A DNA stretch of 64,000 nt from a virus. The notes under the pieces are model-generated. The model saw only the letters and a program-made list of their open reading frames with translations. It searched no databases and had not been told where the DNA came from. Location: IMG/VR virus record IMGVR_UViG_3300009703_000014, positions 1 to 64,000 of that record. The stretch is one strand, 5' to 3'. The position numbers were made by a program, and so were the translations under genes. Each line of letters opens with the position of its first letter. Position 1 is the stretch's first letter. Positions 29,233-61,845 of the stretch are shown piece by piece.

Positions 29233-29491
29233 ATTTTCTGTAAATATTGACCCAATATCCAATACTACAAATCTTTCTGTGCAGGTAAATGATCATAAAT
29301 TAAAAAAAACACATATACTGGATAAGGCGGCTAGTTCTTTAACTTCTGCAAAAGCATATGCAGACCAGTTTATAATAGGGGTGAGGCGTCAGATGGGTGA
29401 CGAGCAGTCTTCAAAACTGTCCCCCTCCGTTTCCAAACCGGAGTGCGTGGGTTCGATTCCTACCACCCCTGCAAACAAGGTAAATATATAA
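29225..29491 (+). CDS. Small ORF overlapping the UCA tRNA gene
   Basis: ATG 29225 overlaps the previous stop, and the frame ends in TAA that overlaps the amidase ATG, as at most junctions here. The 88 codons would give M-T-R-F-S-V-N-I-D-P and about 50 plausible residues. The rest is simply the translated tRNA at 29377-29471. Either the ORF is genuinely shared with the tRNA or its true coding part is truncated. I keep it at low confidence. Confidence 0.4.
   Translation: MTRFSVNIDPISNTTNLSVQVNDHKLKKTHILDKAASSLTSAKAYADQFIIGVRRQMGDEQSSKLSPSVSKPECVGSIPTTPANKVNI
29377..29471 (+). tRNA. UGA-reading tRNA (anticodon UCA), tRNA-Trp acceptor on a long-variable-arm body
   Basis: The sequence folds as a tRNA. 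The 7-bp acceptor is A-G-G-G-G-T-G with C-A-C-C-C-C-T, and the discriminator is G471. The D-stem is CGTC/GACG. The anticodon stem GCAGT/ACTGT closes loop C-T-T-C-A-A-A, so the anticodon is UCA. The T-arm is GTGGG-TTCGATT-CCTAC. Between anticodon and T arms lies a 26-base variable region with hairpin CTCCG/CGGAG, which is unlike tRNA-Trp. A1-U72, G5-C68 and G73 are TrpRS identity features, and the E. coli tRNA-Trp acceptor differs at only one pair. Three bases separate acceptor and D-stem, and base 8 is A. CCA is not encoded (GCAA follows). It decodes the in-frame UGA codons of the late genes. Confidence 0.85.
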
Positions 29492-33542: not shown

Positions 33543-35417
33543 ATGCCAGTAAAGCATATTACAGAAGCAGAGTCCACTAGGGCACGTAGCACAAACTACC
33601 CGAACCCTTTTTTCGATTTAGCTAATAATTACATACCTAAAAATATAAAAACTTTATTTAAATTTTGTAGAAGTTTCTTTTACACTAACGGATTTTTACG
33701 GAATGTAATTACGAAACTTACTGAGTATCCTATTACGGACTTACTCTATTCAACAACTATAGACGAAGCTACACGAGATTTATACGATCAGGCCTTACAC
33801 CGTAAACTAAAAATCAAGAGCCTTTTAATTGAAATCGGGCTGGACTATTATACTTACGGTAACGCTTTTGTATCTACCCATATAAAAAGTAAACGATTCA
33901 TTAAGTATCCTGATGGTCAAATGATCCCTATCGACCAGGCCACTATTAAAGTAAAAAACTTTGAATTTTATGCATCTAAACAAGGTGTAAGTGATGTAAA
34001 AGTTGAGGTTGTAGACGAGCCTATTAAGTCCATTGATAATTTTAAATTACTGAGATGGGCTCCAGAAAATATAGATATAGACTATAGCCCCATAACAGGC
34101 GACTCAATATATTACTATACTATTCCTTCTAAGATAAAGGCGGGGATAGCTGCCGGAAATATAGCCATTTTGCGAGATATACCTCTAGTTTTCTTAGACT
34201 CTCTACGACAAAAAAAGCGTATTATACTCGATGAAAACAACTTGTTTCATTTTAAGCGTCCTACGCTTGCTGAAGACGACATGGGATGGGGAAAACCTTT
34301 AATTCTTCCAGCTTTAAAAGATATTTATTATTTACAAACACTAAAGCGTGGAAATGAGGCCATTTCAAATGAGCACATAATTCCTAAAAAAGCGATCTAC
34401 CCTGCTAATACCACAACGCTAGACCCATATACCCAAATGAATCTCGGTAAGTGAAAAGGTCAGATGGAACAGCAAATTAAAAAATGGAGACAAGACCCTA
34501 ACCACATAGGAGTTTTTCCAATCCCTATTGGATATCAAGAGTTAGGTGGAAACGGCAGAGCTTTGCTATTAACGCCAGAAATGAAATTTATTGAGGAGTC
34601 TATTATTAACAGTATGGGTGTTCCTTTAGAATTTATTAAGGGAGGGGCTTCTTGGACGGGTTCTAGCATTTCTTTGAGAATTGTAGAAAATCATTTTTTA
34701 ACATATAGGGAGTTTTTAACAGAATTTTTAAATCATTTTGTAGTACATAAATTAGTACATTTATTAAACTACCCTAAAGTAGACGTACGTTTTAGTAAAT
34801 TTAAAATGTCGGACGATGCCCAAGCTAAACAGCTAGCTATTAATTTAAACGCATCTGGCAAGATTTCAGACTCAAAATTACTAGACGAGTTTGGGTATAA
34901 TTATGAGGAGGAGGCCACTGCTATCAAGCGTACGCGTTTAGACATGATGAATGATGCTATTTTGCAGTCTGAGAAAGACGCCGAAGCGCAAGGCAAGTCT
35001 CAAATAATTTTAAGTAAATACCAAACAAGAGCTCAAAAAGCGGGAGAAGATGAAGCTTTTAGATTAAAAGCAGAGATCTTTGAAAAAGAGCTTATGCAAG
35101 AAAATCAAGGAATACCTGAAGACCCCATTAAGCTTATAGAAAAATATGCTTATGAGATACATGGGCTGGATCCTGTTAATCAGCAGAAAAAAATGGCTCA
35201 ATTAATTAAAAAAGCTCCAATTACATACGGCCTTGTTTTGGAGAGATTGCAGCTTATACAAATGGAAGCAAACCAGGTTATGGCAGCTTCAGCAAGCATG
35301 GAAGAGCCTTCTTTAGACACAGCTCCTAACGAGAAAGGAGTAGGAAATAGAGAGGGAGATAAAGTTAAGTTGCGTGAAAAAGAAAAAACAAAAGGCCAAA
35401 CAAGAGGTAGTGTTTAA
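33543..35417 (+). CDS. Portal protein, 624 aa
   Basis: The frame from ATG 33543 to TAA 35415-35417 has one TGA at 34452. The protein has the phage portal layout: an N-terminal helical clip/wing part (F-Y-T-N-G-F-L-R-N-V-I), a central G-L-D-Y-Y-T-Y-G-N-A-F and H-F-K-R-P segment, then P-E-M-K-F-I-E-E-S-I-I-N-S-M-G-V-P. The end is a charged helical tail (residues ~480-624). Portals form the dodecameric DNA gate at the capsid vertex. The TGA lies between L-G-K and K-G-Q, splitting a standard-code call in two. Confidence 0.88.
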
Positions 35418-35805: not shown

Positions 35806-37110
35806 TTATGATAAGGCTTCCTTAAAAATTTTCTTTAATAGCGTTTTCTTGTCATCCCACCTAAAAAGCTTGTCTATCCGCGCAATACACTTCGTATCTA
35901 TGGTTATTTTTTTGTTATTTTTTTTCCATTTTTTATATTCAATTTCTAAGGCGTCCGTCATTGCGCCCATATCTGCTACGGGCCTTAAGTGCCCATTATC
36001 CATCGCTTGGTTAATCACTGTTGTGTTAGGAATTAAGTGTCCTGTATCACCCAGCATCTCTGGAATTGCGCTATTAAAAGGTGCAATGCTAGGGGTACCT
36101 GTGGAAGCTGCCTCTAAAAGACTTAGCCCACATCCCTCACCTAATGCACTAGATATGTTTACATTAGCTGCATTATATAGCTGGTTAATAACAGAATCAG
36201 GCACCTCTCCAGCATAAATATTTCGAGCATTTATACCTAAAATAGTGTTTACATCAGAGTCAGCAAACCCGGCATTTAATAAGTGGTTTTGTAGTAGGTT
36301 AGCTTTAGAAGGGCCCATTGACATCTCTTTAGGCATACAATGTAAGTAGAGAAACACGTCATCTTTAACTGTCCCTTTTGCTTTTAAATCTCTGGATCTA
36401 GTTAAATCGCACCACTCTCTATCTGCTGGCATTTTAAATCCCTGTTCATTTTCTTTATAGCCTTTAGCAAACATACTAAAAGCTCTAGCTGTGCCAGGAA
36501 TAAACTTTCTAGGTTGGAATCTATTTATGTTACAAACTACAAACTTATCTTCCCAACCAAACTGTTTACGAAGACTTTTTATTTCCTCTTTAGGTAGCGG
36601 ATAAAAAGTCTTTTTGTCTACACCATGATAAAGCTTCCACAGTTTTTTATCTGGAAGTTTAAAATTCTTAATTTGTTTTGTAACTTCAATAGCCCAGTCA
36701 CTGTACTCTATTATAGCATCAGAATAAGTAAAAACGTCTCCCCAAGCAAAAGAAACAGGAGCCCCATCAATAGGAAAATACGATACAATTTTAGCGTTAG
36801 GAGCCCAGTCTGTTTTTATTTTTTTAATAACTTCTGAAACATGGAAAATGTCTTGGAAAAGAAATATAAGTTCAGGCTTTTCTTTTTTTATAATCCGCTC
36901 CATTTTTTTATATCCCAGCATATCATCCTTAGATATGGGGTATACAAAATATTTTGAAGTATCATACCGGGTCTCCCCATGGTAGTTAATGCCTAAGACA
37001 CTAACATCATAATCCTCATGCATATCCTCCAGTAAATTTTTTGCAACATTTCCAAAGCCAGTAGGGACTAAAAAATCACACCAGCAAAACAGTTTTTTCT
37101 TATTACTCAT
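35806..37110 (-). CDS. Glycosyltransferase family 4-like (GT-B)
   Basis: The 434-residue protein has the GT-B plan: an N-terminal acceptor-binding Rossmann half (C-D-F-L-V-P-T-G-F-G-N-V-A) and a C-terminal donor-binding half. The donor half carries N-R-F-Q-P-R-K near residue 197 and the GT4 E-x7-E region G-E-G-C-G-L-S-L-L-E-A-A-S-T-G-T-P around residues 325-342. It probably transfers a sugar to phage DNA, virion protein or host surface. Its start overlaps the end of the HNH gene. All Trp codons are TGG and it ends in TAA. Confidence 0.85.
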   Translation of the reverse strand: MSNKKKLFCWCDFLVPTGFGNVAKNLLEDMHEDYDVSVLGINYHGETRYDTSKYFVYPISKDDMLGYKKMERIIKKEKPELIFLFQDIFHVSEVIKKIKTDWAPNAKIVSYFPIDGAPVSFAWGDVFTYSDAIIEYSDWAIEVTKQIKNFKLPDKKLWKLYHGVDKKTFYPLPKEEIKSLRKQFGWEDKFVVCNINRFQPRKFIPGTARAFSMFAKGYKENEQGFKMPADREWCDLTRSRDLKAKGTVKDDVFLYLHCMPKEMSMGPSKANLLQNHLLNAGFADSDVNTILGINARNIYAGEVPDSVINQLYNAANVNISSALGEGCGLSLLEAASTGTPSIAPFNSAIPEMLGDTGHLIPNTTVINQAMDNGHLRPVADMGAMTDALEIEYKKWKKNNKKITIDTKCIARIDKLFRWDDKKTLLKKIFKEALS

Positions 37111-37774
37111 TTATTTTTTTTATGGTTTTTTTTATATGTTTTTGTAAATTAAAATTTTTAGGCACTGAGGCACTTTTAATAAGGTTAGGCGCTGCCCATA
37201 AAGGCTGTAAGTTTGTATAATGAAAAGCAACCTTTTGGTGCTCTTCTTTATCTAAGGAGAATGCACTACAAGGGATAATGTGATCTACGTGCCAATCCCC
37301 ATAATTTTTCCAGGACATGCCTGCTTCAAATTGCTTTTCTAGATATTCTTTTAGATAGGAAACTGAGCAACCTAACAAATAAACAGTTTTAGCCTCCTTT
37401 GTTTTCCCGTCAGCCTTTAAAGCTGTAGTAAGGCGGGAGCGCATTGTATTTTTTAATTTAAAAATGGGGTCTGAGGCCATTCTTTTATTATACCAAGTAT
37501 TTCGCTTAGCTCTATATAAATCGCCTTTAATAGGGTCTCTTCTAATATCTTTATAACGCTTTCTATCCTTAGCCCTTATAACTTCTCGGTTAACCTCTCT
37601 ATACTCCGCAGCTTTTAGAAGGGCCCTAGCTTTATTTTCTTCATAATACTTAGCTAAGTACGACTTTAGACAAGGGGCACATGCGGATTTGTGTCCATCT
37701 AATGCGTTTTTATTTTTTGAAAAGTCTGCTAAGCGAAGTATTTTATGGCACCTGGTACATTGTTTTGTGTTCAT
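37103..37774 (-). CDS. HNH homing-type endonuclease
   Basis: The 223-residue protein has an N-terminal Cys-rich part (C-T-R-C near residue 6 and C-A-P-C near 33) like a treble-clef zinc finger, then a basic linker. The HNH core is W-H-V-D-H-I-I-P-C-S-A-F followed by H-Y-T-N-L-Q-P-L-W-A and N-L-I-K-S. Such free-standing nucleases are typical phage mobile genes. It lies between the glycosyltransferase (overlapping) and the structured RNA block, so it may have been inserted there. A -10-like GGTTATATTAAAG lies just upstream. Confidence 0.88.
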   Translation of the reverse strand: MNTKQCTRCHKILRLADFSKNKNALDGHKSACAPCLKSYLAKYYEENKARALLKAAEYREVNREVIRAKDRKRYKDIRRDPIKGDLYRAKRNTWYNKRMASDPIFKLKNTMRSRLTTALKADGKTKEAKTVYLLGCSVSYLKEYLEKQFEAGMSWKNYGDWHVDHIIPCSAFSLDKEEHQKVAFHYTNLQPLWAAPNLIKSASVPKNFNLQKHIKKTIKKINE

Positions 37775-37846
37775 ACTTTAATATAACCATAATTTGGCGG
37801 CATTTCAAGGGTCTAAAAAATTCTTAATGTAAAAAAATAAGGACTT

Positions 37847-37870
37847 TAAAGCGCCCAAATGGGCGCTTTA
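37847..37870 (-). terminator. Hairpin, probable minus-strand terminator
   Basis: A 10-bp perfect stem TAAAGCGCCC/GGGCGCTTTA with loop AAAT. On the minus strand it is followed 11 bases later by a T7 run, with the same AATGTAAAAAA flank as other terminators here. On the plus strand only TTGTTT follows. It marks the left edge of the structured RNA block. Confidence 0.5.
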
Positions 37871-37875
37871 TTGTT

Positions 37876-37883
37876 TATAAATA
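37876..37883 (+). promoter_or_regulatory. Candidate promoter for the structured RNA (TATAAATA)
   Basis: TATAAATA lies about 30 bases before the first long-range helix of the RNA block, at a distance that would place transcription start near 37888-37890. It resembles the TATAAR boxes before plus-strand operons. Support is from position only. Confidence 0.35.
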
Positions 37884-37887
37884 TGTG

Positions 37888-38834
37888 GCTAATTCGCACA
37901 ATTAAGAGTATTTTGTGTTGCACTTCGAGGGAAGGGAGGGGTCTCGTCGTGGCCTGGATTCAGAACCTTCTCGTTGTCGCTGTTGCAGCGGGCGTCCTGA
38001 GGCCTAGGAGAACCGGGTGATCGCGTCATCCTTTTGGAGGGGCGTCCTGTCTGGCATGCATCCAGAGCTGAGCTGTAGCTGGGGTGTCACCTGAGTCTCA
38101 TCGGTTGTTGTCCGTTGGATCTTAGGGGCGGGCCATGCCCAGTATGTTGGCGGCGCTCTGATCATGAGCTTGTATTTCGTGACCGTTCGGGGACCCTTGG
38201 GCTCCACCTGGGGTGAATCGCGTCAACATGTTCCCGTGTGGTTCATGTGTCATGGCTGGCGTAACCTTAGGCCCTGGAACCGGAGGACGCCTCCGTTGTT
38301 GCTCGCGAGATTCCTGACGATAAAAGTGGCTCCGTTCATATCACGGTGTTTCGGCATGACGTTTTCCGAGCCCGATCCGGGCTCTTGTGCTGATAGTGAT
38401 ATGTGGTGACCTTTAGTCAGGAAGACTGTGAGTGACTCTAGTGGCGTCCTTTGTGGTCAGGACCGGTTGCGGTCGTTATGACACTACTCTTTGGTATTAA
38501 TTCTTTAGAAACGGTACGTCTCTGGGTTTGCAAAATCTGCGAACCGTTTAGCCATCTACCAACGTATATTGTTATCTATACAATAAATTCCCTACTCTAG
38601 CCTATGAGGCTCTTGGGGATTTATGTCCACTTACTAGGGGAATGAATAAAAGTCCTGCAGAATCAGTAAATTTCGGCTCGGGGGGCACCTTCATTCGGAA
38701 GGTGCTCAAAATGAGAGCATAGAACTTTACTGTAGTGCGTGGAGGTTTATTCATTCTCGAAGAAGTTTGTTGTCTTGTTCTTTGGTAACACACTTACAAA
38801 GTCGTATCGACTTTGAATCCTTATTTTATAAGGA
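37888..38834 (+). ncRNA. Giant structured non-coding RNA (~0.95 kb), class unknown
   Basis: No credible gene lies here, yet the block is strikingly GC-rich for this genome and full of helices. The closing helix 37914-37921 pairs with 38785-38792. Others are CGCTG/CAGCG at 37978-37990, CGGAGG/CCTCCG at 38281-38295, and CATATCAC/GTGATATG at 38337-38344/38396-38403. The last encloses a GAGCCC/GGGCTC hairpin at 38368-38384. More are GACCG/CGGTC at 38461-38474, AAACGGT/ACCGTTT at 38509/38543, a 13-bp helix 38638-38650/38746-38758 with nested CAGTAAA/TTTACTG, and an 8-bp hairpin at 38685-38705. Two perfect hairpins at 38797-38834 may end it. Several helices contain G-U pairs only in plus orientation. 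GOLLD or ROOL giant phage RNAs are possible, or a new class. Strand is uncertain. Confidence 0.65.
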
Positions 38835-38853
38835 AAGGGTCTATAGATATTAT

Positions 38854-39093
38854 TTAGAAAGTTTTCTCTTCTTGTAGTGAAAATTTTCTAAATAACGAGA
38901 TTGCTTTTTTTAATTCTCTAAGACTTCGTCTTGTACGCTTCGCAGCCGTTTTAGTCCCAATAATCGTAAACCGTAAGTTTTGATTTTTTGCTTCTAAGAA
39001 CAGCTCCTCCATGTACGTGAAAACTTCTTGCCCTGAGCTAAATTGCTTTTCTCGATTTGTTTTGGTAGTATCCTTCTTTATATTATGTTCCAT
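38854..39093 (-). CDS. Small basic coiled-coil protein, 79 aa
   Basis: The start overlaps the end of the radical-SAM-like gene and it stops at TAA just right of the structured RNA. It is rich in Lys and Arg (A-A-K-R-T-R-R-S-L-R-E-L-K-K), suggesting nucleic-acid binding. It has no recognisable domain. It is the last gene of the minus-strand retron/MoxR operon. Confidence 0.62.
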   Translation of the reverse strand: MEHNIKKDTTKTNREKQFSSGQEVFTYMEELFLEAKNQNLRFTIIGTKTAAKRTRRSLRELKKAISLFRKFSLQEEKTF

Positions 39094-39803
39094 TGTTTAC
39101 CTTTAGTAACTGTACTTCTCCAACACTTGTTGCATGTCGAGCAGGATTTTTCGTGAGGTATCAGGCCGCTATCACAGGGACAGCTTTCTTTATATACTCT
39201 CGATTTTTCCATTTCTTTGTGTTTTTTTGATATGTTGAAGAAAATTGTGAAGTCTAAGCCTTTCTTTTTCCAGGATCCAAAGCTATCTGCTGTCCCTGTG
39301 TAGGCAAGGCCTATTTTGTCTAAGCCTTTTTGATTTTTAATATTTTTATAGTTGGCCATATTTTGGTCATCAAAGCTCAGTATTATTTTTGTTAGGTTTC
39401 TTAGGTTTTTTAAACGGTTAATATAAGGGAGCATGTGGGTCTGCGTTATATTTTTTGATATAATATAAAATTTAAAGTCAAGTAATTTTAGAAACTCTAG
39501 ATGATGCTCTTTAAAATCACCGCTCCCATAAATTCTTACTGGGAGTTTGTCTAAGCGATGGTATGCTTTAGCTTTACTTCTTCTATATTTGCGATACTCT
39601 TTATTCAGAGCACTAGCAAACATTTTTGGGTTGTCAGTTGCCATAGTTTCATTACGTTCTATCTTAGGCTTATATGCCTTATATAATTTTTCCAAGTTGC
39701 CTACATAACAGTAGGCGCATATTTGGTCGCAGGTTGTAAACCTGTCAAAGTCTAAGGATAAAATCGTTTTTGAATTAGTGGTAAATATAGGAGGCGCTGA
39801 CAT
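39078..39803 (-). CDS. Radical-SAM-like, Cys-rich phage protein (Gp88-like)
   Basis: The 241-residue protein has a C-D-Q-I-C-A-Y-C-Y cluster near residues 24-32, spaced C-x3-C-x2-C as in radical-SAM [4Fe-4S] enzymes. A second Cys set lies near the C-terminus (C-P-C-D-S-G, then C-S-T-C-N-K-C). The middle has alternating strands (V-R-I-Y-G-S-G-D-F, F-Y-I-I-S-K-N) that fit a partial TIM barrel. Phage Gp88-type proteins share this early Cys cluster. Substrate unknown. It starts 9 bases after the next gene's stop, within the retron operon. Confidence 0.62.
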   Translation of the reverse strand: MSAPPIFTTNSKTILSLDFDRFTTCDQICAYCYVGNLEKLYKAYKPKIERNETMATDNPKMFASALNKEYRKYRRSKAKAYHRLDKLPVRIYGSGDFKEHHLEFLKLLDFKFYIISKNITQTHMLPYINRLKNLRNLTKIILSFDDQNMANYKNIKNQKGLDKIGLAYTGTADSFGSWKKKGLDFTIFFNISKKHKEMEKSRVYKESCPCDSGLIPHEKSCSTCNKCWRSTVTKGKQWNII

Positions 39804-40162: not shown

Positions 40163-40660
40163 CTATGGTTGGTTTAATTTAATTTCTGTGTTGCAGTACA
40201 TAAACAAAAATCGTTTACATTCGTTTAACAGAACTTTAATTTGTTTTTTTAGTCCACCAGGCGAGGTGGTTCCTAATTTTCGTGTTATTGTAACTTCTTT
40301 TTTTGTCCATGAGTATTCAAAATTTATCTTTTTTGATATCATTTGCTTCTCAAAAGAGGCGGGGAAAGTTTGTTTTAGTTGTAGGTTTGGCCTGCCGTTA
40401 GACATGTCAAGCAACAACTGCATAAACCCCGTTTTTAATGTATCTTTTTTATTTAGTAAGAGAGTCAGATTATTTACGTCACTAAATTCAGTGAATATAA
40501 ATAGAGCTCCTTCTGTCTCAACCCAGCCGAAAGGCAGGTAGCAAGACGTTTCTTTTAGCCTATCAAACTTTTTACTTAGCAGAACTAAGTTTTTAGCGTC
40601 ATTTTGCCAAGCTGTGTCAAAAACTGGTTTCCTCTTACTGGGTGTAAGCTTTTTATCCAT
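40163..40660 (-). CDS. Retron-adjacent protein of unknown function, 165 aa
   Basis: It overlaps the 3' end of the reverse transcriptase gene by 76 bases, so the two are translated together. The product has a basic N-terminus, a D-N-V-N-N-L-T-L-L-L-type helix and a basic C-terminus ending in N-E-C-K-R-F-L-F. I recognise no known retron effector domain (no nuclease, ATPase, TIR or transmembrane motif). Its tight coupling makes it the best candidate partner of the retron. Confidence 0.62.
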   Translation of the reverse strand: MDKKLTPSKRKPVFDTAWQNDAKNLVLLSKKFDRLKETSCYLPFGWVETEGALFIFTEFSDVNNLTLLLNKKDTLKTGFMQLLLDMSNGRPNLQLKQTFPASFEKQMISKKINFEYSWTKKEVTITRKLGTTSPGGLKKQIKVLLNECKRFLFMYCNTEIKLNQP

Positions 40661-41487
40661 TCGCAGTATCCTCTCATTTGCTGATATTCTTCTAGAGAAA
40701 TTGTTTTTTGATCTCTATTGATGTTGTGTAATTTTGCTCTGAAGTTACGCCACTTCCATTTTGGAACGCTTAACTTCTTATTTACAACCACCCCTGTAAT
40801 GCTCATGCGTTGGTTGGGTTTTCGTATCCGCGTCTTCTTAGGATTTACTTTCAGGTCTGCCATTTCTATAAATTCTGTGATAGGTTTTATATGTGTCCCC
40901 ATTTTTTCACTTTTATCCGAGTGGCTAAAGGTGAGGTCATCAGCATATCTCGTGTAGAGAAGCCCATGGATTTCGCTGTATGTGCTTAAATTGTGATCTA
41001 GAGCTATACAGTATAAGTTTGCCAATGCCGGTGATGTGGGGGATCCTTGTGGAAGCTGTCCCTTATAAGTAACCAATTTTACAAAAACTTTCAAATCCTC
41101 TCTTGTAAAAGTAAAAGAGGGCTCTATTTTCTTATACCTATTAAATAGGGAAAACCCCAATTTATAAACGTTTGCCGTTTTAATAGAATTGAAGAAGTTC
41201 GATAGGTCCATGCAGAGTAAAGCGTCTCGCCCTAAGTGCCTTAATGCTCCGTCTGCAACGCCAATGCCCGACACAAAACCTACAGCTGCGTCATGAGCAC
41301 TGAAGTTATATAAAAAGGAATATAAAATTCTACTTTGTATCTCCTTTAATTCGTCTAGGGGGGCGTCTAGCCAACGCTTCTTTCCACTTTTTTTGCTGAT
41401 GGGGTACGATAAGTAGTTTTTCCCTTGGTCGGAAATTATGCCCATAGCCTCTTGTTTGCTTGTCTGTATGCATTCATAAAAATCCAT
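40585..41487 (-). CDS. Retron-type reverse transcriptase
   Basis: The 300-residue protein carries the RT fingers/palm motifs in order. L-P-Q-G-S-P-T-S-P-A-L-A-N-L lies near residue 152, the catalytic Y-A-D-D in Y-T-R-Y-A-D-D-L-T-F-S near 190, and a D-L-S-N-F-F first-Asp motif near 94. N-P-K-K-T-R is followed by the retron-typical I-T-G-V-V-V-N near 230. Size and these motifs fit retron RTs, which make msDNA from an upstream RNA, rather than group II introns (no maturase or nuclease domain) or DGRs. An msr-msd-like RNA lies just upstream. Confidence 0.88.
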   Translation of the reverse strand: MDFYECIQTSKQEAMGIISDQGKNYLSYPISKKSGKKRWLDAPLDELKEIQSRILYSFLYNFSAHDAAVGFVSGIGVADGALRHLGRDALLCMDLSNFFNSIKTANVYKLGFSLFNRYKKIEPSFTFTREDLKVFVKLVTYKGQLPQGSPTSPALANLYCIALDHNLSTYSEIHGLLYTRYADDLTFSHSDKSEKMGTHIKPITEFIEMADLKVNPKKTRIRKPNQRMSITGVVVNKKLSVPKWKWRNFRAKLHNINRDQKTISLEEYQQMRGYCEWIKSLHPVRGNQFLTQLGKMTLKT

Positions 41488-41509
41488 AAAAACTCCTTTT
41501 TTTTAATTA

Positions 41510-41702
41510 CAATCATACTACTAGGCCAGCTTCTCGGAAGGCGTCCGCTTCCGAGAGTTGCCGTGTTGTTGTTTCGTGTTGTCCCACACGAAGTATTTAG
41601 TATTATCTTAAGAAAAGCGAAGCGCCTTTCGTAGACTTTGTTTTTATAACGTAGTCGTATTAGTCTATAACTGTACTAAACAGTAATCTTTTAATATGAT
41701 TG
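41510..41702 (-). ncRNA. Retron msr-msd RNA (a1/a2 stem present)
   Basis: Transcribed in the RT direction and ending 23 bases before its ATG. The flanking repeats a1 (CAATCATATTA, 41692-41702) and a2 (TAGTATGATTG, 41510-41520) pair over 11 bp with one G-U, as retron ncRNAs require. Inside, in transcript order, are hairpins ACTGT/ACAGT, GAAAGGCG/CGCTTTTC (8 bp), TTCGTGT/ACACGAA and a strong CTCGGAAG/CTTCCGAG stem with 7-base loop. The last is the likely msd hairpin. Total ~193 nt is a normal retron size. The branching G is not assigned. Confidence 0.75.
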
Positions 41703-41717
41703 ATTACGGTTATTTTA

Positions 41718-41749
41718 GGTACTATGCCAGACGAATCGTTCTGGGTACC
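41718..41749 (-). other. Extra hairpin upstream of the retron RNA
   Basis: Helix GGTAC/GTACC closes an inner CCAGA/TCTGG stem. It lies between the VWA gene and repeat a1 and may belong to a longer msr or to the 3' end of the VWA mRNA. No T run follows, so it is not a typical terminator. Confidence 0.45.
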
Positions 41750-41789
41750 GTATTATATAATACAGTGCGTACTACAGTTAGTTTTTTTG

Positions 41790-43325
41790 TTACACTACTG
41801 AAAAAATAATTTCAGCTACTTTGTCAGCGGAAGACTGTCTTATATCGTCTAACTTGCTAATCTTGTCCGAAAACTCGTTAATGGCGCAATCAGTATTATA
41901 ATCCACATCAACCAGAACAGAGTGTACTATTACATTTTTTTGCTTCTTCCAGGAAATGAAATCATATAACCAACTTTTCCTGACTGCGGAGTTTCCATCC
42001 GTAATAAACACAATGTCCGCTTTTTTAAATTCTTTGTGGTCGTTTATTGTGTCTTTGGCGAGATCTAGCGGTGGCTCGAATTGGGTACCGCCGCTTGCGA
42101 AAAACTCCGCCATGTCTAAAACCTCTGATACATTATAGGCATCAGATTTTAGAAAGTTGTTGGTGTGAAGCATGTGCTTGGGTGAGGCATCGAAGTGAAT
42201 AACGTGCAAGCTTCTGTTTTCAGCTCTAGCTATTTCTAGCAAACCCATGGCTACTCCTTTAGCCCATATTTCAGGCTCTCCGTGCATACTTCCACTACTA
42301 TCAATACACACTACAATGGGACCTTTTGCCTTTTTTTCCTTACCAGCATACTTATATTGTAATAAGTTACTTTCCACATAATTCTTTTTGAACGATGTTT
42401 TTAGCAGAGGGTGCGACAGCTTTGACATCTCAGTCGGAATCAGCTTTCCTATGTCCTTCCCAAGTTCTATATCATAAATGCTATTTACACCTTTTGATAT
42501 TTTGTTCTTGAAAGTACTAAGGGCTAAAGACTTATAGCGGCCCATTAAAGCAGCTATTTCCTTTAACTTTTTGGAAGTATTCAGGGTTTCCAATAATTTT
42601 AGTTTTTCTTGATACCCGCTTTTTTGATAGTTAGGGTCCTGCTCTAGCCCCCAGTTAGCTATCATCTCTGAAGTTTCCTGGGTTTTGGAAATTGCCTTAT
42701 CTAGCATCCTGTTTATCTGTCGTTTTTCTTTCTTCTCTACGACATTTAAAGTGTTTAGAGTATCCTCGAGGTGTTTTTGAGCGTCCTCTAAACTTATCTG
42801 TTCTTGGGATTTTCCTTCCCCAGTCCCGTTGTTCTCCTTTTCTGCATCACCTCCTGCAGCTTGTTCCTTGTCGGCAGCATTCTCTGCGGCACTCTCTAGG
42901 TTTTTAAGCGCTTCATCGAACTTGTCCTTAAGGTCTTTAACCAAATCCTTAACCTGTTCCCCAACTACTTCGGTACCCACGGCAGCATTTAGCTTGTCAA
43001 GCCTAGTCATTCCTCTTAGTTCCTTATATTGAGGGCTGTCCATAACGGCATCCATCACCTGGCTATTTAAACTATATTCGTAAGCTATATCTTTGTCGTC
43101 GAATTTTTCGGGACTATACTTATATAAGCTATCGAAAACGTCTTGGTGGAGATGCTCGAACTGTGGGTACATATCTGTGCCGGACATGTAAGTGGCGGCT
43201 ATTTTTGGATTTTTTAGTAGAAGCTCTTTGAAAGCGTGTATGTCGAAATTGTCATACTTCACGCTATACTTCTCGGATTTTATTCGTTTTAGAATACTTT
43301 TTGCTTTTTCTGACAATGTTTTCAT
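41790..43325 (-). CDS. VWA-domain protein, ViaA/CoxE-like partner of MoxR ATPase
   Basis: The 511-residue protein has a long helical N-terminal region with an acidic stretch near residues 150-180. The C-terminal von Willebrand A domain starts near residue 330. Its MIDAS motif is clear: V-V-C-I-D-S-S-G-S-M (D-x-S-x-S), a downstream G-G-T-Q-F Thr site, and F-I-T-D-G-N-S. VWA proteins of this type work with MoxR/RavA AAA+ ATPases as chaperone or metal-insertion pairs. The ATPase is encoded next to it, as in ravA-viaA. All Trp codons are TGG. Confidence 0.85.
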   Translation of the reverse strand: MKTLSEKAKSILKRIKSEKYSVKYDNFDIHAFKELLLKNPKIAATYMSGTDMYPQFEHLHQDVFDSLYKYSPEKFDDKDIAYEYSLNSQVMDAVMDSPQYKELRGMTRLDKLNAAVGTEVVGEQVKDLVKDLKDKFDEALKNLESAAENAADKEQAAGGDAEKENNGTGEGKSQEQISLEDAQKHLEDTLNTLNVVEKKEKRQINRMLDKAISKTQETSEMIANWGLEQDPNYQKSGYQEKLKLLETLNTSKKLKEIAALMGRYKSLALSTFKNKISKGVNSIYDIELGKDIGKLIPTEMSKLSHPLLKTSFKKNYVESNLLQYKYAGKEKKAKGPIVVCIDSSGSMHGEPEIWAKGVAMGLLEIARAENRSLHVIHFDASPKHMLHTNNFLKSDAYNVSEVLDMAEFFASGGTQFEPPLDLAKDTINDHKEFKKADIVFITDGNSAVRKSWLYDFISWKKQKNVIVHSVLVDVDYNTDCAINEFSDKISKLDDIRQSSADKVAEIIFSVV

Positions 43326-45073: not shown

Positions 45074-45138
45074 AATTGTTTTGACTTCCCTTATATTTAG
45101 GGTTATATTTAAATATTCTAAAATATTTTAATTTGAGG

Positions 45139-45149
45139 TAAATTATAAG
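45139..45149 (+). promoter_or_regulatory. Candidate promoter for the RNA polymerase gene
   Basis: TAAATTATAAG lies 34 bases before the ATG at 45183, the same spacing as the TATAAR boxes before 28472 and 62004. It sits in a GAGG...CCTC inverted repeat (45135-45153) that could be an operator. Confidence 0.4.
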
Positions 45150-45157
45150 CCTCATTG

Positions 45158-45167
45158 TTCTTATACC
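45158..45167 (-). promoter_or_regulatory. Early-type promoter GGTATAAGAA
   Basis: One of five intergenic copies of GGTATAAGAA, all pointing along the minus strand. This copy drives the 45.1-38.85 kb operon with the MoxR/VWA pair and retron. The first possible ATG is 85 bases downstream. Confidence 0.55.
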
Positions 45168-45182
45168 AAAAAAACACCAATT

Positions 45183-48100
45183 ATGGAAAATCTATTAAAC
45201 CACGAATTACAAAATAAGCGTATTCAAAAATCTATTATAAAGTCTATAAACAGTTATTTTCCTGTAGAGGCCGGCAACAAGCGCTTAGACATCAGTGACT
45301 TATCAATAAAAGATTCTTTAGACAGTAATGACTTTCCAGCACAAAAAGAAAGTAAATTAAGCAGACAAAGCTGGCAAGTTCCGATTTACGCTTCCCTTAC
45401 TTTAACAGATCTTTTAACACAAAAAGTTATTAGTAAAAAAACGAATATAAAGATAGGGGACGTCCCTAAGCTAACAAACAGATTTACTACCATTGTTGAT
45501 GGAAATGAATATCAAACAGTAAATCAGCTTAGACGTAAACCTGGGGTTTATTCAAGAATTAAAAAGAATGGGGAACTTGAAAGCGAGTTTAATCTCGCTA
45601 AGGGTGTGAACTTTAAAATGCAGCTTGATCCAGTTAAAGAAGTTTTTTATATTGTGCTGGCCAACAGACGTTATAGACTGTGAACTTTATTACAAACACT
45701 AGGAATGTCTGATGCGGATATGGAGCGTTTTTGGGGAAGCGAACTTTTGCTTAAAAATAAAAAAGGCGCCCTAAACACAGAAGAATCAGAGATGACTGCT
45801 ATTTATAGTAAGCTTTATAGAAAGCCTGCTAAAGATTATGATTCTGTGGTGAAGGGGCTACGTAATTACTTTACAGAAGAAGGTACTAAATTAGATGAAG
45901 GCACCACTAAACTTACCCTGGGAAAGTCCTTTAAAGCTGTTACAGGGGAAACCTTAATTGCAGCCTCAAATAAGTTACTAAATATTCATAAAGGCAAGGA
46001 GGCTGCAGACGATCGGGATAGTTTAGTATATAAGAATATGCATACGGTGGATGATCTTGTGATTGACCATTTTCATAGAAATGCCGAAGTCATAGTAGAA
46101 AAAATTAAAAGATCTATGGGGCTTAGAGACACAGTTCGCGCTGTAATTCCTGCAAGCACCTTTACTAAGCCTGTAAAAGATTTCTTTACTTCAGGTGACC
46201 TGTCAGCAACACCTGCCCAAACGAATCCAGCAGTTATTGTGTCTGACTGGAGAAAAACGTCTCCTATGGGAACAGGGGGAATACAAAGCAGGCACGCCAT
46301 TACTATGGAAACTCGAGACGTGCAGCCTACGCATCTAAGCTTTTTAGACCCACTAGCTACTCCTGAATCAGGCAGAGTAGGCGTAACGGTAGGGTTATCT
46401 TCTGAGGTACAAAAACAAAATGGGGAAATGAAAACTCCTGTTGTTAATCCAAAAACTAACAAGATGGTATTTGTTACTCCTTTAGAGTTTTTTGAAGCAA
46501 GGGTAGGATTCCCTGACCAGTATTCTTATAAAAATTCTAAGGTGGTACCTAGATATAAAATAGTGAATGCCCAATATAAAGGGAAGCTGGTTAGGATAAA
46601 AGCCTCCCAAGTCGATTACTATATAAGATCACCCAAGTCTATGTTTTCTTTTGCATCAAATATGGTGCCTTTTATGCAGACAGTTCAGGGAAACAGGGCA
46701 TCTACGGCCGGTCGAATGATAGGACAAGCCTTGGGCTTGGATAATAAGGAAGCCCCCCTCGTGCAAACTTTAAGAGACTCCGGCGCCGGTACAGGAAAAG
46801 AAACTTATGAAAAACTAATAGGTAATTTTTTAAACCCAATACTCGGGAAAGATTCTAAGGGAAAGACGCAAAAAGGGATAGTTGAAAAGATTACAAAAGA
46901 CTATATTTATATTAAAACGTCTGACGGGCGGCAAGTAAAGCGGGGCCTATATAACAATTTTCCCCTAAATCAGGATGGCTTTTTACACTCCAACCCTTTA
47001 GTTAAAGTAGGTGACTCTATAAAGTCAGACACAATATTAGCAGACAATAATTATGCAGACAAGGACACCTTAGCTCTGGGTAAAAACCTTTCAGTGGCCT
47101 ACATGGCTTACAAAGGTTTTAATTTTGAGGACGGTGCCGTTATAACAGAAAGTGCTGCTAAAAAGCTATCGCATACAATGTTACACAGACTGAATGTTTT
47201 TTATAGCCCAAAAACATCTTTATTTGACGTAAGTAAATTTCAAGCATGGTTTCCGGATGACATAACAAATAGTAGTATTTTGGATGCCACCGGCGTTGTT
47301 AAAAAAGGGGCCACCGTCAATCCGGGCGACACTGTCGTTGCTTTTTTAATAGAAAAAGAAATGGATGACCGAGAAAAAGCTTTAAAAAAATTAGATAAGT
47401 TTACATTTACCCCTTACACAAAAAAAACGTTGGTATGGGAAGAAGACGAGCCAGGAATTGTTAGCGAGGTTAGGAGGGTTGGCAGAAATATTGACGTATA
47501 CATCAAAAGTACCCATCCTTTTACAGAAGGTGATAAGCTATCAGGGCGGTATGGCAATAAATACATCGTAACTAAAATTATTGACGATGCGGATTCGCCT
47601 CATAGAGAAAACGGGGAGCCTGTTGAAATACTATTAAATCCTCATGGTGTTCCCGCACGAATGAATGTGGGACAAATTTTAGAAACAGCTGCGGCTAAAA
47701 TAGCTAAAAAAACAGGGAAACCTTACATTGTTAATAACTTTGAAAACCCTGACGCAGACATGGTCACTAATATGAGCAAGGAGTTAAAGAAGCATGGGTT
47801 AAAAACTACTGAGATACTGACCGACGGAAAAACGGGTCAATCTTTTGAAACCCCTATATATACAGGTGGGCAGTACTTTATGAAACTGCGCCATATTGTT
47901 AAGAAAAAGGAAGGAAAACACGCGTTCGGTACTTATGATATTGATGAGCAGCCTACAGGAAAGGGGTCCCAAAGAATTGGAGTATTAGACACATACTCTT
48001 ACCTAGCACACGGTGCAAAAGCAAACTTAAGAGAAATGACTTCTATAAAAAGTAGGCAGAATGAGGAGTATTGACGTAATTTACAGTTAGGGTTACCTCC

Positions 48101-51100
48101 TGTAAAACCTCAACGAAACTTTATATTTAATAAAATTACTTCTTATCTTAATGCTGCGGGGATTAATACTGTAAAGAAGGGAAATGAGTTAAGAGTGATG
48201 CCTCTAACAGATAAGGACGTAAGGAATATGTCTAATGGGGACTTAAAAGATCCGGGAGCCATGCTTATTGGAAAAAACCTAGGTTCTAGAAAAGGCGGTC
48301 TTTTTGATCCAGAAATTACTGGAGGCATTAAAGGGACCCAATGATCGCATATCAAGCTCACTGCACGTATACCTAATCCTATGTATGAAGACGCAATTAT
48401 GAAAGCTTTAGAGCTTACACAAAATAAGTTTGAAGCTATTATGAAAGGTAAAGAAACTCTTGGTAATAAAACAGGCCCAGCCGCAATTGTAAACGCTTTA
48501 AGCAATTTAAATGTTAAGGAAGAAATTAAAAAGGCTAAAAAAGCATTAAAGAGTGCTCCAGAAACAACCGTTAATAAGTTAAATAAGCGATTACGTAATT
48601 TGGTGGCATTAAAAGATTTAAAAATAGGTGCTAAGGAGGCATACACAATGCAGAATGTTCCTGTACTCCCTCCTTCTTTTAGACCTGTGTACCCCCTTCC
48701 TAGCGGAGATCTCATGGTCAGTGATCTAAACAAACATTATAGGGATATTGGGTTAATTAATTCCTCTTTAAAAAAGGTGTGGTCTTCATTAGAGGATGAA
48801 GACAGGCTATCCTCTACGAACGACTTATACACTTCCGTTAAAGCAATGCAAGGCTTTATAGATCCAGTAACCTATGGTAAGGAAAAATATCAGGGGATAT
48901 TAAAAGAGCTGGGCAAAACTAAAACTGGCCTACTTTTTGAAAAGGGGTGGTCTAAACGACAAGACTTAAGCGCCAGAAGCACTATTACGGTTGCACCTAG
49001 TTTAGGGCTGGATGAGGTAGGACTCCCTAAAAAAATGGCTTTCACAGTTTATAAGCCTTTTATTGTCAGGAGTTTAAAGGAAAGCGGCTTTAAAGCTAGA
49101 GAGGCTTTAAAACATGTAGAGGACCAAACAGACATTGCTTTGAATGCTCTACAAGGTGTATTGAAAAAAAGACCTTTGCTATTAAATAGAGCTCCGTCTT
49201 TGCATAAGCACTCTGTGCAAGCTTTTGACCCTACTCTTAGTTCTGGAAAATCAATACAGCTTAATCCCCTAATTGTGGGTGGATTTAATGCAGACTTTGA
49301 TGGTGATACAATGTCAATTAATGTGCCAGTAGGTAAAGAGGCTGTAGAAGAGGCGAAAGGAATGCTGCCTAGTAAAATACTTTTTAAAGCTGGCGATAGC
49401 TCTCTAATACCACAGATAGCTCATGAATATTTATTTGGTCTTTTTATGCTATCTGAAATTAATGGAAAGAGTGACTTGAGTTTTAACTCAATAAGCTCTG
49501 CTAAGAAAGCAGGCATTCCATGGACTACAGAATTTAAATTAAAAGGAGATACAGTAACTTTAGGGCAATATTATATTAACGCTGAACTACCTGCGGCTTT
49601 AAAAGACTATACCCGAAAATTAGATAAGAAGGCTGTAAAGAAGCTTTTAACAGTTTTAGCTAAAGACCACCCTTCTTATTTTACAGAGGTTATTAATAGC
49701 TGAAAAACTTTAGGAGCACACTATGCCTATTTAAGAGGCAACACTATCTCATTAGATGACTTTGCTATAGATAGGTCTTATAAAAATAGAATTTTAAATA
49801 AAGTGATGCCTATTATTGATAAGATGAAGGGAAGGTCAAAAATCGAAGCTTTAAATAAAATGACAGTCTCTGTACAAAAAGCACAGGATAAAGCCATGAA
49901 GGGTAGAAATAATAATATATATGATATGCTTAGATCGGGGTCTTTTACAAAACCTGATTCTGTGAGGCAAATTTTGTCCTTTCCAGGCGTAGTCTCGGAC
50001 GTAAAAGGGCAGCCTATTGAGCACCCCATACTTAAATCATATGGGGAAGGACTAGACACTGCTTCATACTTTAATTCAATGTACGGTGTGCGTAAAGGCC
50101 AGGTAGATAGGTCTGTTAATACTCAAGAGTCTGGTGCCTTAAATAAAGCCCTTCTAAATGTTACACGACGTTTGTTGGTTACAGAGGAAGACTGTGGTAC
50201 TTTAAAAGGCTTAATATTCGGGGTTACTAATAAGAATATATATGACCGTTTTTTATTAAAAACGGTGGCTGGTGTAGGGAGACGAAATGAAATTGTTGGG
50301 GGAGAGCTTATTATAAGGGCTAAAAAGAAGAAAATCAAAGAATTGGAAGTAAGAAGCCCTTTGACCTGTGAAGCAGATCAAGGTGTATGTCAAAGCTGTT
50401 ATGGGCTGCTGCCTAACGGAAGTCCAGCACCAGTCGGAACAAATGTAGGGGTTTTAGAATCCCAAGCCATTACTGAAAGAGCTACGCAACTTACAATGCA
50501 AACTTTCCACTCAGGCGGAACTGCCTTAGGAGGTGGTGGTATTGTTGCAGGGTTTCCTCGGTTAGAGCAGATTTTAAAAGTGCCTGAAAAGCTCGGAGGA
50601 AAAGCTACTTTATCGGATGTAAAGGGTAAAGTTAAGAAAATCAAGAAGAATTTGACAGGAGGATATGAGGTATTTATAGAGGGGTATGGTGCTAAGAATG
50701 ATAAGAGTTTTGTAGTTCCCGCTGGACGCCAAATTATACTTAAAGTAGGTGATTCGGTAGATAGGGGAGATCCTATATCAAGCGGCGTTATTAAACCGCA
50801 AGAGCTCGGAGCACTAAAAACACATTTAGATGCTCAAAAGTATATGGTGCGTGAAGCTTCCTCTGTATACTCCGGAGACTTTTATGATAAAACGTTTGAA
50901 ACTGTTATAAGAGGCATTAGTGATAATGCCGAGGTTACAGACGCTCCCGAGGGCTCAAATGTACTACGGGGAGATAAAATGCCTGCTAGCTCTTTGAGAA
51001 AATTAAATAAAGAAAGGCGAAAGCTAAAATTACCTAAAATTAAATTTAAAGAGTATTTTAAATCTATAGATACTTTAAATACAGATGCTAGAGATTGGCT

Positions 51101-51257
51101 GACTAGAATTACAAGTAACAGGGTGAAGGCCGGGCTCATTACAGCAGCCTCTCAAGGACAATACTCTAACTTTAAGGGAAAAGACCCTATTCCCGCATAC
51201 TTATATGGGGACGACTTTGGTAAAAAATCCGACCCGTCTAAGGGACACTTTTATTAA
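45183..51257 (+). CDS. Fused beta-beta' DNA-dependent RNA polymerase, 2024 aa
   Basis: One open frame covers both large subunits, interrupted only by TGA at codons 167, 964, 1054 and 1507. The beta part has a rifampicin-region-like N-R-A-S-T-A-G-R-M, R-Y-G-N-K-Y-I-V with N-P-H-G-V-P-A-R-M-N-V-G-Q-I-L-E, and a G-S-Q-R-I-G-V-L-D C-terminal match. Beta' follows without a stop: the catalytic N-A-D-F-D-G-D lies at residues 1369-1375, a C-x6-C-x2-C zinc site in L-T-C-E-A-D-Q-G-V-C-Q-S-C-Y-G, and the bridge/trigger region F-H-S-G-G near 1775. No alpha or omega homologue is in the window. It probably transcribes late genes, perhaps with the 1215-1937 sigma. UGA at (UGA)-S-H-I matches a conserved Trp. 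Confidence 0.9.
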
Positions 51258-61036: not shown

Positions 61037-61356
61037 GCTATAGTCGGTATTGTATCAGTTGCAACTTTTGTTTTACTTCTTAGTTGCTGTGGCTTTTTAC
61101 CGTCAAGCCGTATATATATTCTAATTTTACTGTCATCTTCTATATCCGGTTATTGTTTCTAGTACCCATGTTAATGCCCTTAAAAGGGATATGCCTGCGT
61201 ACAAGCATCAGAGGTATAAAGTTGATATTAAGCGGGCCAATAAGCGTTTAATCAATGCTATTGGTGTGTTCTTCTTCTGCATATATTTTACTAAAAAATT
61301 TTTCATTTAAAAAAAGTGGTTTATTGTTTGTAAGTTTTCTGTTAAATACAGACCAG
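61037..61356. other. Gene-poor spacer before the tRNA/tmRNA cluster
   Basis: No long ORF. A plus-strand 39-codon frame (61191-61310) and a minus-strand 32-codon frame (ATG 61306, stop TGA 61208) both look membrane-like and compete. The minus one begins inside the 24-bp repeat shared with a real gene start. Neither has a good ribosome site, so I call neither. Confidence 0.5.
61299..61322. repeat. 24-bp direct repeat, copy 2
   Basis: Exact copy of 56422-56445, at the start of the minus-strand small frame described above. Confidence 0.75.
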
Positions 61357-61429
61357 TGACCCGAGAGCGGCTCGAACGCTCGACCCACTGCTTAAAAGGC
61401 CGTTGCTCTACCTGCTGAGCTATCGGGTC
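61357..61429 (-). tRNA. tRNA-Lys (UUU)
   Basis: Complete cloverleaf: acceptor GACCCGA/TCGGGTC, T8, D-stem GCTC/GAGC, anticodon loop CTTTTAA (UUU), T-arm GAGCG-TTCGAGC-CGCTC, discriminator A. The anticodon stem has one G-A mismatch. CCA is not encoded. First of a minus-strand tRNA/tmRNA group. Confidence 0.88.
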
Positions 61430-61433
61430 AATA

Positions 61434-61507
61434 TGGTAGCGGGGCCGGGAATTGCACCCGGGACTCAGGCTTATGAGGCCTACGTTTTACTACTTCACTA
61501 CCCCGCA
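61434..61507 (-). tRNA. tRNA with CAU anticodon, initiator-like
   Basis: Anticodon loop CTCATAA (CAU). Acceptor G2-C71 to G7-C66 pairs, but T1 and T72 do not pair; an unpaired 1-72 position is the hallmark of bacterial initiator tRNA. Discriminator A and CCA are encoded. The D-stem is weak and T-loop position 55 is G, so it may be diverged. It sits between tRNA-Lys and tmRNA. Confidence 0.75.
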
Positions 61508-61514
61508 TTTATTG

Positions 61515-61845
61515 TGGAGACGGCGAGAGTCGAACTCGCGTCTTGAAAAACTCTATATAAAAGTCATTCACAAGCTTATCCAGTTGCTCTTCTTCTGGCA
61601 AGTCAGCTTAACTGTTCTTATTTAATGTGTCGTAGTTATAGCAACCAACATCTGATTTACTGTTTTCTCAGGGTCTTTCCGATATGATGTCGCTACCTCT
61701 TATCGGAGTAGGAGGGCGACAGGCTGCATATTACTACGCTGCCATTGCGTAACTGTTGCCAATTGAAATTGACGTTTGTTTTAACGTGTATACTCACGGC
61801 TTGCACTTCTATACGATATTTCCCAATCGAAACCAAAACGTCCCC
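61515..61845 (-). ncRNA. ssrA: Transfer-messenger RNA (tmRNA)
   Basis: The 3' end GACGCGAGTTCGACTCTCGC forms the T-arm and, with 5' GGGGACG, the acceptor pair CGTCTCC. The pair set includes the G3-U70 alanine identity element. The 5' part starts GGGGACGTTTTGG, a classic tmRNA start. A resume codon GGC opens a tag reading G-N-S-Y-A-M-A-A followed by TAG TAA, analogous to the usual hydrophobic A-L-A-A ending. tmRNA rescues stalled ribosomes; CCA is not encoded. Confidence 0.9.

Follow-up and report, generated by a model that had tools for sequence, protein, structure and literature searches.

GOLLD and ROOL are phage-borne RNAs that are often located near tRNA islands (PMC12286853). Palindromes of six bases, the commonest target length of type II restriction systems, are generally avoided (PMC10359461). 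Here, a window of 64,000 nucleotides from a 73-kb contig of an uncultivated phage was analysed, in which an interval of about 1 kb without a convincing ORF lies between glycosyltransferase/HNH genes and o79/GP88-like genes. The initial annotation had read this element as a giant functional RNA that may be a member of GOLLD or ROOL or a new class. Our best explanation, which is still tentative, is that in this element the window has its own copy of a non-coding locus that evolves fast, keeps a fixed position and belongs to a reverse transcriptase (RT) cassette, and that this locus may supply restriction decoys.

The non-coding element occupies positions 37846..38853, with no strand assigned, and is self-complementary on both strands. 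Its longest ORFs are 81 aa (code 11) and 163 aa (code 4). None of its ORFs under either code matched a PHROG, and the code-4 candidates had codon log-odds of -0.5 to -0.8 in all frames, as against approximately +0.05 for the real neighbouring genes. The PHROG silence and the negative log-odds ruled out a protein-coding gene here, whether read in code 11 or in code 4, and the earlier claim that the element contains no ORF was borne out in so far as neither usable code gives a convincing one. The element had also been described as GC-rich, which holds for the interval as a whole (0.49 against 0.379 for the window), but the elevation is concentrated at about 37900-38500.

Relative to 60 dinucleotide-preserving shuffles, the element folded strongly on the plus strand (z -7.7) as well as on the minus strand (z -5.9); z-scores obtained earlier from 16-20 shuffles were rougher than these values. 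On the plus strand, a 7-bp helix TGGCTAA/TTAGCCA closes the span 37886..38554 with a mean pair probability of 0.92, a long irregular rod of successive helices extends over 38247..38484 (helix probabilities 0.96-1.0), and a second rod of 13 + 7 + 10 bp is found at 38638..38758 (0.98-1.0). Strong helices, as initially proposed, are thus present. The closing helix of 870 bases that had been drawn between TGTGTTGC at 37914 and GTAACACA at 38785 received a pairing probability of 0.001 and is not upheld. Nor does the TATAAATA box mark the element, since it occurs 14 times in the window with 10.7 occurrences expected; at this chance-level frequency, with no enrichment, TATAAATA was rejected as a late promoter. 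G-U pairs had further been taken to favour the plus orientation, and a strand call from G-U content did appear strong in the runs with 16-20 shuffles. Because the plus strand is rich in G and T, correction for base composition reduced the strand energy difference to z -1.4, and this call was abandoned; in the other elements of the family described below the corresponding values ranged from -2.7 to +1.3. Beyond composition, both strands of the element fold about equally. The element is therefore only putatively an RNA, and its RNA nature is a candidate reading.

A search of the element with cmscan against Rfam 15 gave no hit at the gathering threshold, and relaxing the cut-off to E <= 10 brought up none of relevance; the GOLLD, ROOL, OLE, HEARO and intron models all failed to match. 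No tRNA island adjoins the element, the nearest predicted tRNA being more than 8 kb away, and membership in GOLLD, ROOL or OLE is accordingly without support. A large structured RNA resembling these two, perhaps self-assembling and of a new class that diverges too fast to align, is a doubtful alternative, though one to be weighed seriously. The strong global fold, the rods of high pair probability, the size near 1 kb and the absence of an ORF would all suit it, as would the phage-borne location that GOLLD and ROOL share (PMC12286853), and the mismatches within helices lean towards the plus strand, with G.T exceeding A.C by 62 to 38 in the relatives and by 10 to 1 in the window. It is weakened by the silence of Rfam, by a strand preference that is unclear under composition control, by the lack of helices or words shared among the elements beyond their edge, and by a selection for palindromic hexamers in the relatives, which is not a property of a fold. 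What stands of the functional-RNA claim is a functional non-coding element, possibly of a new class, whose position is conserved and in which inverted repeats abound; the RNA nature and the strand are putative.

Relatives of the locus were fetched by means of the proteins neighbouring the element. Approximately 23 distinct uncultivated phage contigs, part of them assembly fragments, were found to carry a portal gene, a glycosyltransferase gene, an element, genes for a GP88-like protein, o69 and o165, a retron-type RT gene and a VWA gene, although GP88, o69 and o165 are missing from some branches. In the window the following genes lie on the minus strand around the element. The glycosyltransferase (35806..37110; PHROG 2170, 1.4e-31; Pfam Glyco_trans_1_4) is the left neighbour in all relatives, and the HNH/endonuclease VII-like gene between it and the element (37103..37774; PHROG 1035, 5.3e-23) was at this locus found in this phage only. 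At the right edge is the gene of a small basic protein, o79 (38854..39093), matching Pfam Hc1 at the cut-off (4.9e-5), followed by the GP88-like protein (39078..39803; Pfam GP88, 1.1e-10; alignment A1) with a CxxxCxxC motif and a cysteine-rich C terminus. The o165 gene (40163..40660) overlaps the 3' end of the RT gene and its product has no known fold; a structure model of moderate confidence gave no fold relatives. A ViaA-like VWA-domain protein (41790..43325; Pfam VWA_2, 3.2e-9) bounds the cassette. Several relatives displayed protein matches split into two separated pieces, namely the glycosyltransferase in L006, L010 and L058, the RT in L010 and the VWA protein in L002 and L056, which suggests, from the pattern of the matches, insertions inside these genes.

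The position of the element is the same across the relatives, its length varies and the sequence within it cannot be aligned. By blastn, neither cultured phages nor any of the fetched loci showed similarity inside the element, and outside the edge the elements had no helices or words in common. The collections searched contained no close relative of the window copy, the search for cultured relatives by protein yielded distant ones only, and no bacterial genome matched the glycosyltransferase profile. The window copy belongs to a locus that is syntenic and hypervariable.

The left edge of the window copy consists of TTCTTAATGTAAAAAAA and a hairpin (37847..37870, no strand assigned) that are letter for letter the same in L004, and in many relatives the hairpin with its T-run forms an intrinsic terminator of the minus strand. 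Just inside the hairpin is a YTYGCAC box (37893..37899, plus strand) shared with relatives; 7 of 14 elements contain it, each in a single copy and always near the left edge. Terminators were scanned for, and boxes counted, with simple scripts run on a limited set of loci. Edge and box together place the window copy within the locus family. They also bear on the possibility that the element is a functionless, drifting GC-rich insertion in a permissive intergenic spot. Such an insertion would be expected to show the missing sequence conservation, the variable length and the lack of an array in the window copy, but a fixed position, a conserved edge with its box, strong non-random folding and hexamer-specific enrichment in fifteen relatives make this reading very improbable.

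The RT gene (40585..41487, minus strand) encodes a YADD motif and was assigned by PADLOC to RT_XIII (3.2e-72). Its profile matched the RT of retron Ec86 (2.8e-54), and on the PADLOC and Ec86 evidence the RT is of retron type; the match to NCBIfam retron_St85_RT (2e-63) was below the cut-off of that model. Upstream of the RT gene is a structured gap (41488..41789, minus strand), which matches no Rfam model and has a mean fold z of about -3.5 on the RT strand. This gap is probably the ncRNA of a phage retron. Arm-like motifs within it, AACTGTAGTAC and GTACAGTTATAG, recur across several relatives. The element could serve the phage retron as a further template or as a structural RNA, being copied into msDNA-like hairpins for a purpose unrelated to restriction. 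A retron-type RT is co-located with it in all relatives that have enough flank, inverted repeats are abundant on both strands, and in L073 and L101 the array described next occupies the usual msr-msd place before the RT. We consider this quite unlikely nonetheless, as the window already contains a separate retron-like ncRNA candidate in the upstream gap and as exact palindromes of six bases would be left without a reason.

Arrays of palindromic hexamers were detected in 15 of the approximately 23 relatives (L006 being borderline), located in the element or in the gap before the RT. The 15 array cores (11.5 kb) contained 475 palindromic hexamers, whereas shuffled sequences contained 192.5 +- 12 (z 23). 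Palindromes of 4 bp outside the hexamers were not in excess (534 against 560 expected), and octamers occurred at the rate given by chance (octamer-to-hexamer ratio 0.274 against 0.257); selection is therefore on exactly six bases. All 64 palindromic hexamers were present in the pooled arrays. Within single arrays the sites were largely non-redundant in comparison with random draws, most clearly in four cases: 37 of 40 sites were distinct in L016 (P 0.0006), 36 of 39 in L073 (0 of 5000 simulations as extreme), and L012 and L049 gave P of about 0.02. Such diversity argues against binding sites of a single protein, which would repeat.

In the array carriers, a sliding count over loci of 7-21 kb showed the locus to be the only peak (z 4 to 13), and in scans along the whole length of three contigs the array scored z 8.4, 6.7 and 10.4 with next-highest values of 3.4, 4.9 and 4.2, respectively. 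In L014, L016, L073 and L101 the array is instead located between the VWA and RT genes, so that, depending on the phage, arrays occur on one or the other side of the RT operon. Between L014 and L016 the flanks of the array region align and the arrays do not. The densest arrays, L073 3740-3980, L016 17440-18010, L012 12690-13400 and L010 10520-11240, are polylinker-like, with overlapping and mostly different sites, and the one in L073 resembles the multiple cloning site of a plasmid. Vector contamination was ruled out by reasoning, the arrays differing from phage to phage and sitting between phage genes. The hexamers as a by-product of folding were likewise ruled out: palindromic bases were paired in the predicted folds about as often as other bases, with no preference for stem or loop, 4- and 8-base palindromes had no independent excess, and array-free structured gaps of the same phages were not enriched in hexamers. 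No hexamer peak was seen in 18 loci with more distant RTs.

The window copy contains no such excess, with 16 hexamers where 13.8 were expected (z 0.6), and no array was found elsewhere in the phage contig; L007 and L067 are likewise without an array. Position, edge motif and structure are retained in the window copy, but as a member of the locus it is array-less, and the statements on arrays concern the relatives. Palindromes with one G.T mismatch (z 2.2) and gapped 3-2-3 palindromes (z 3.6) gave weak hints of a decayed array, which we do not claim.

Outside the arrays the same hexamers were slightly depleted, with an observed/expected ratio of 0.97, and 0.93 for the GC-rich ones. This figure bears on the reading of the locus as a cis-acting cluster of sites at the DNA level, for example one at which the phage tolerates being cut or bound by enzymes that recognise palindromes, or exploits this for recombination or DNA uptake. 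Hexamer specificity points to recognition of double-stranded DNA, the arrays are intergenic and in two different gaps, and structure is about equal on both strands, all of which would agree with a DNA element. A cluster in cis would not spare the rest of a genome in which hexamers are barely depleted, and the window copy has no array, and we regard this reading as unlikely.

The timing of the cassette may be approached through the genetic code. The split appearance of the portal gene (33543-35417) is due solely to a single in-frame TGA, at a position where nearly all relatives have TGG and L049 has TGA. The late plus-strand genes (1916-26519 and 45132-51257) read TGA as Trp, with 47 TGA and 75 TGG codons, and the minus-strand genes on the RT side have 0 TGA and 31 TGG. 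Phages that switch their code by means of suppressor tRNAs have been described, and recoding marks late genes. Given this pattern, the lack of TGA in the RT-side genes suggests, as far as codons can tell, that the RT cassette is expressed before the switch. A tRNA with a UCA anticodon predicted at 29377-29472 (plus strand), called tRNA-SeC by ARAGORN, is a candidate for the UGA suppressor that would explain the recoding. A tmRNA is encoded at 61356-61845 (minus strand; Rfam 2.8e-41), with two tRNAs next to it.

Under the preferred explanation, that of a restriction-decoy locus, the locus would supply nucleic acid, probably as a template copied by the RT, and this nucleic acid would act as a decoy for host proteins that read palindromes of six bases, chiefly the restriction enzymes and methylases of type II systems. 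In the window copy, a divergent version under this explanation, position, edge and folded arms would have been kept and the array lost or never gained, and the copy may do the same job. A single, diverse and fast-changing cluster beside a retron-type RT is consistent with a decoy or template that is met by many enzymes recognising six bases. In its most specific form, this explanation has the RT copying a template diversified and rich in palindromes, so that decoys of DNA or RNA-DNA arise; as a panel of restriction sites with little redundancy, they would titrate any type II restriction-modification system of the host, and the window phage would carry a divergent copy of the template. In this detail we hold it to be rather unlikely.

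Several points weigh against decoys. The RT could make the decoy nucleic acid, but the link between RT and array is one of co-location, and the glycosyltransferase and VWA genes are about equally near. An array carried in the genome might itself just be cleaved, and restriction acts at entry, before the RT is made, unless the RT product is packaged. Palindromes present in single copy cannot pair perfectly within one molecule, and for a decoy either another strand or a hybrid of RNA and DNA is therefore required. Finally, the window copy, L007 and L067 show no excess of hexamers.

Genomes under restriction normally thin out six-base palindromes. In these phages dozens of different ones are packed into a few hundred bases; the array is built anew in every phage and invariably has a retron-type RT as its neighbour, and no described counterpart of the palindrome-array locus was found in the literature searched. 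Should the decoy explanation be true, the locus would be a counter-defence of a new kind and would provide a role for the retron RTs of phages; should it be false, some other factor recognises palindromes of six bases very specifically. The novelty concerns the locus family, and it is lower for the array-less window copy taken alone.

Compared with the described systems, the element resembles GOLLD in being phage-borne, non-coding, about 0.8-1 kb long and strongly structured by prediction. It differs from GOLLD in having no covariance-model match and no tRNA neighbours and in folding about equally on both strands; no alignable relative of the element was found in which a GOLLD-like conserved 3' region with covarying pairs could be recognised. 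With ROOL it shares a phage-borne location, large size, structure and the lack of an ORF, whereas a covariance-model match and tRNA neighbours are again missing and the relatives share no fold. The likeness to retrons lies in the neighbouring retron-type RT and the structured gap upstream of it, but the element is about 1 kb long and is located 1.7 kb downstream of the RT gene, apart from the usual msr-msd place. Retrons are characterised by msDNA production, and GOLLD and ROOL by multimeric cages built of RNA only. The avoidance of type II restriction sites in phages and plasmids concerns the same class of words, the 6-bp palindromes, and here the relation is reversed: the relatives of the window copy concentrate these palindromes instead of avoiding them.
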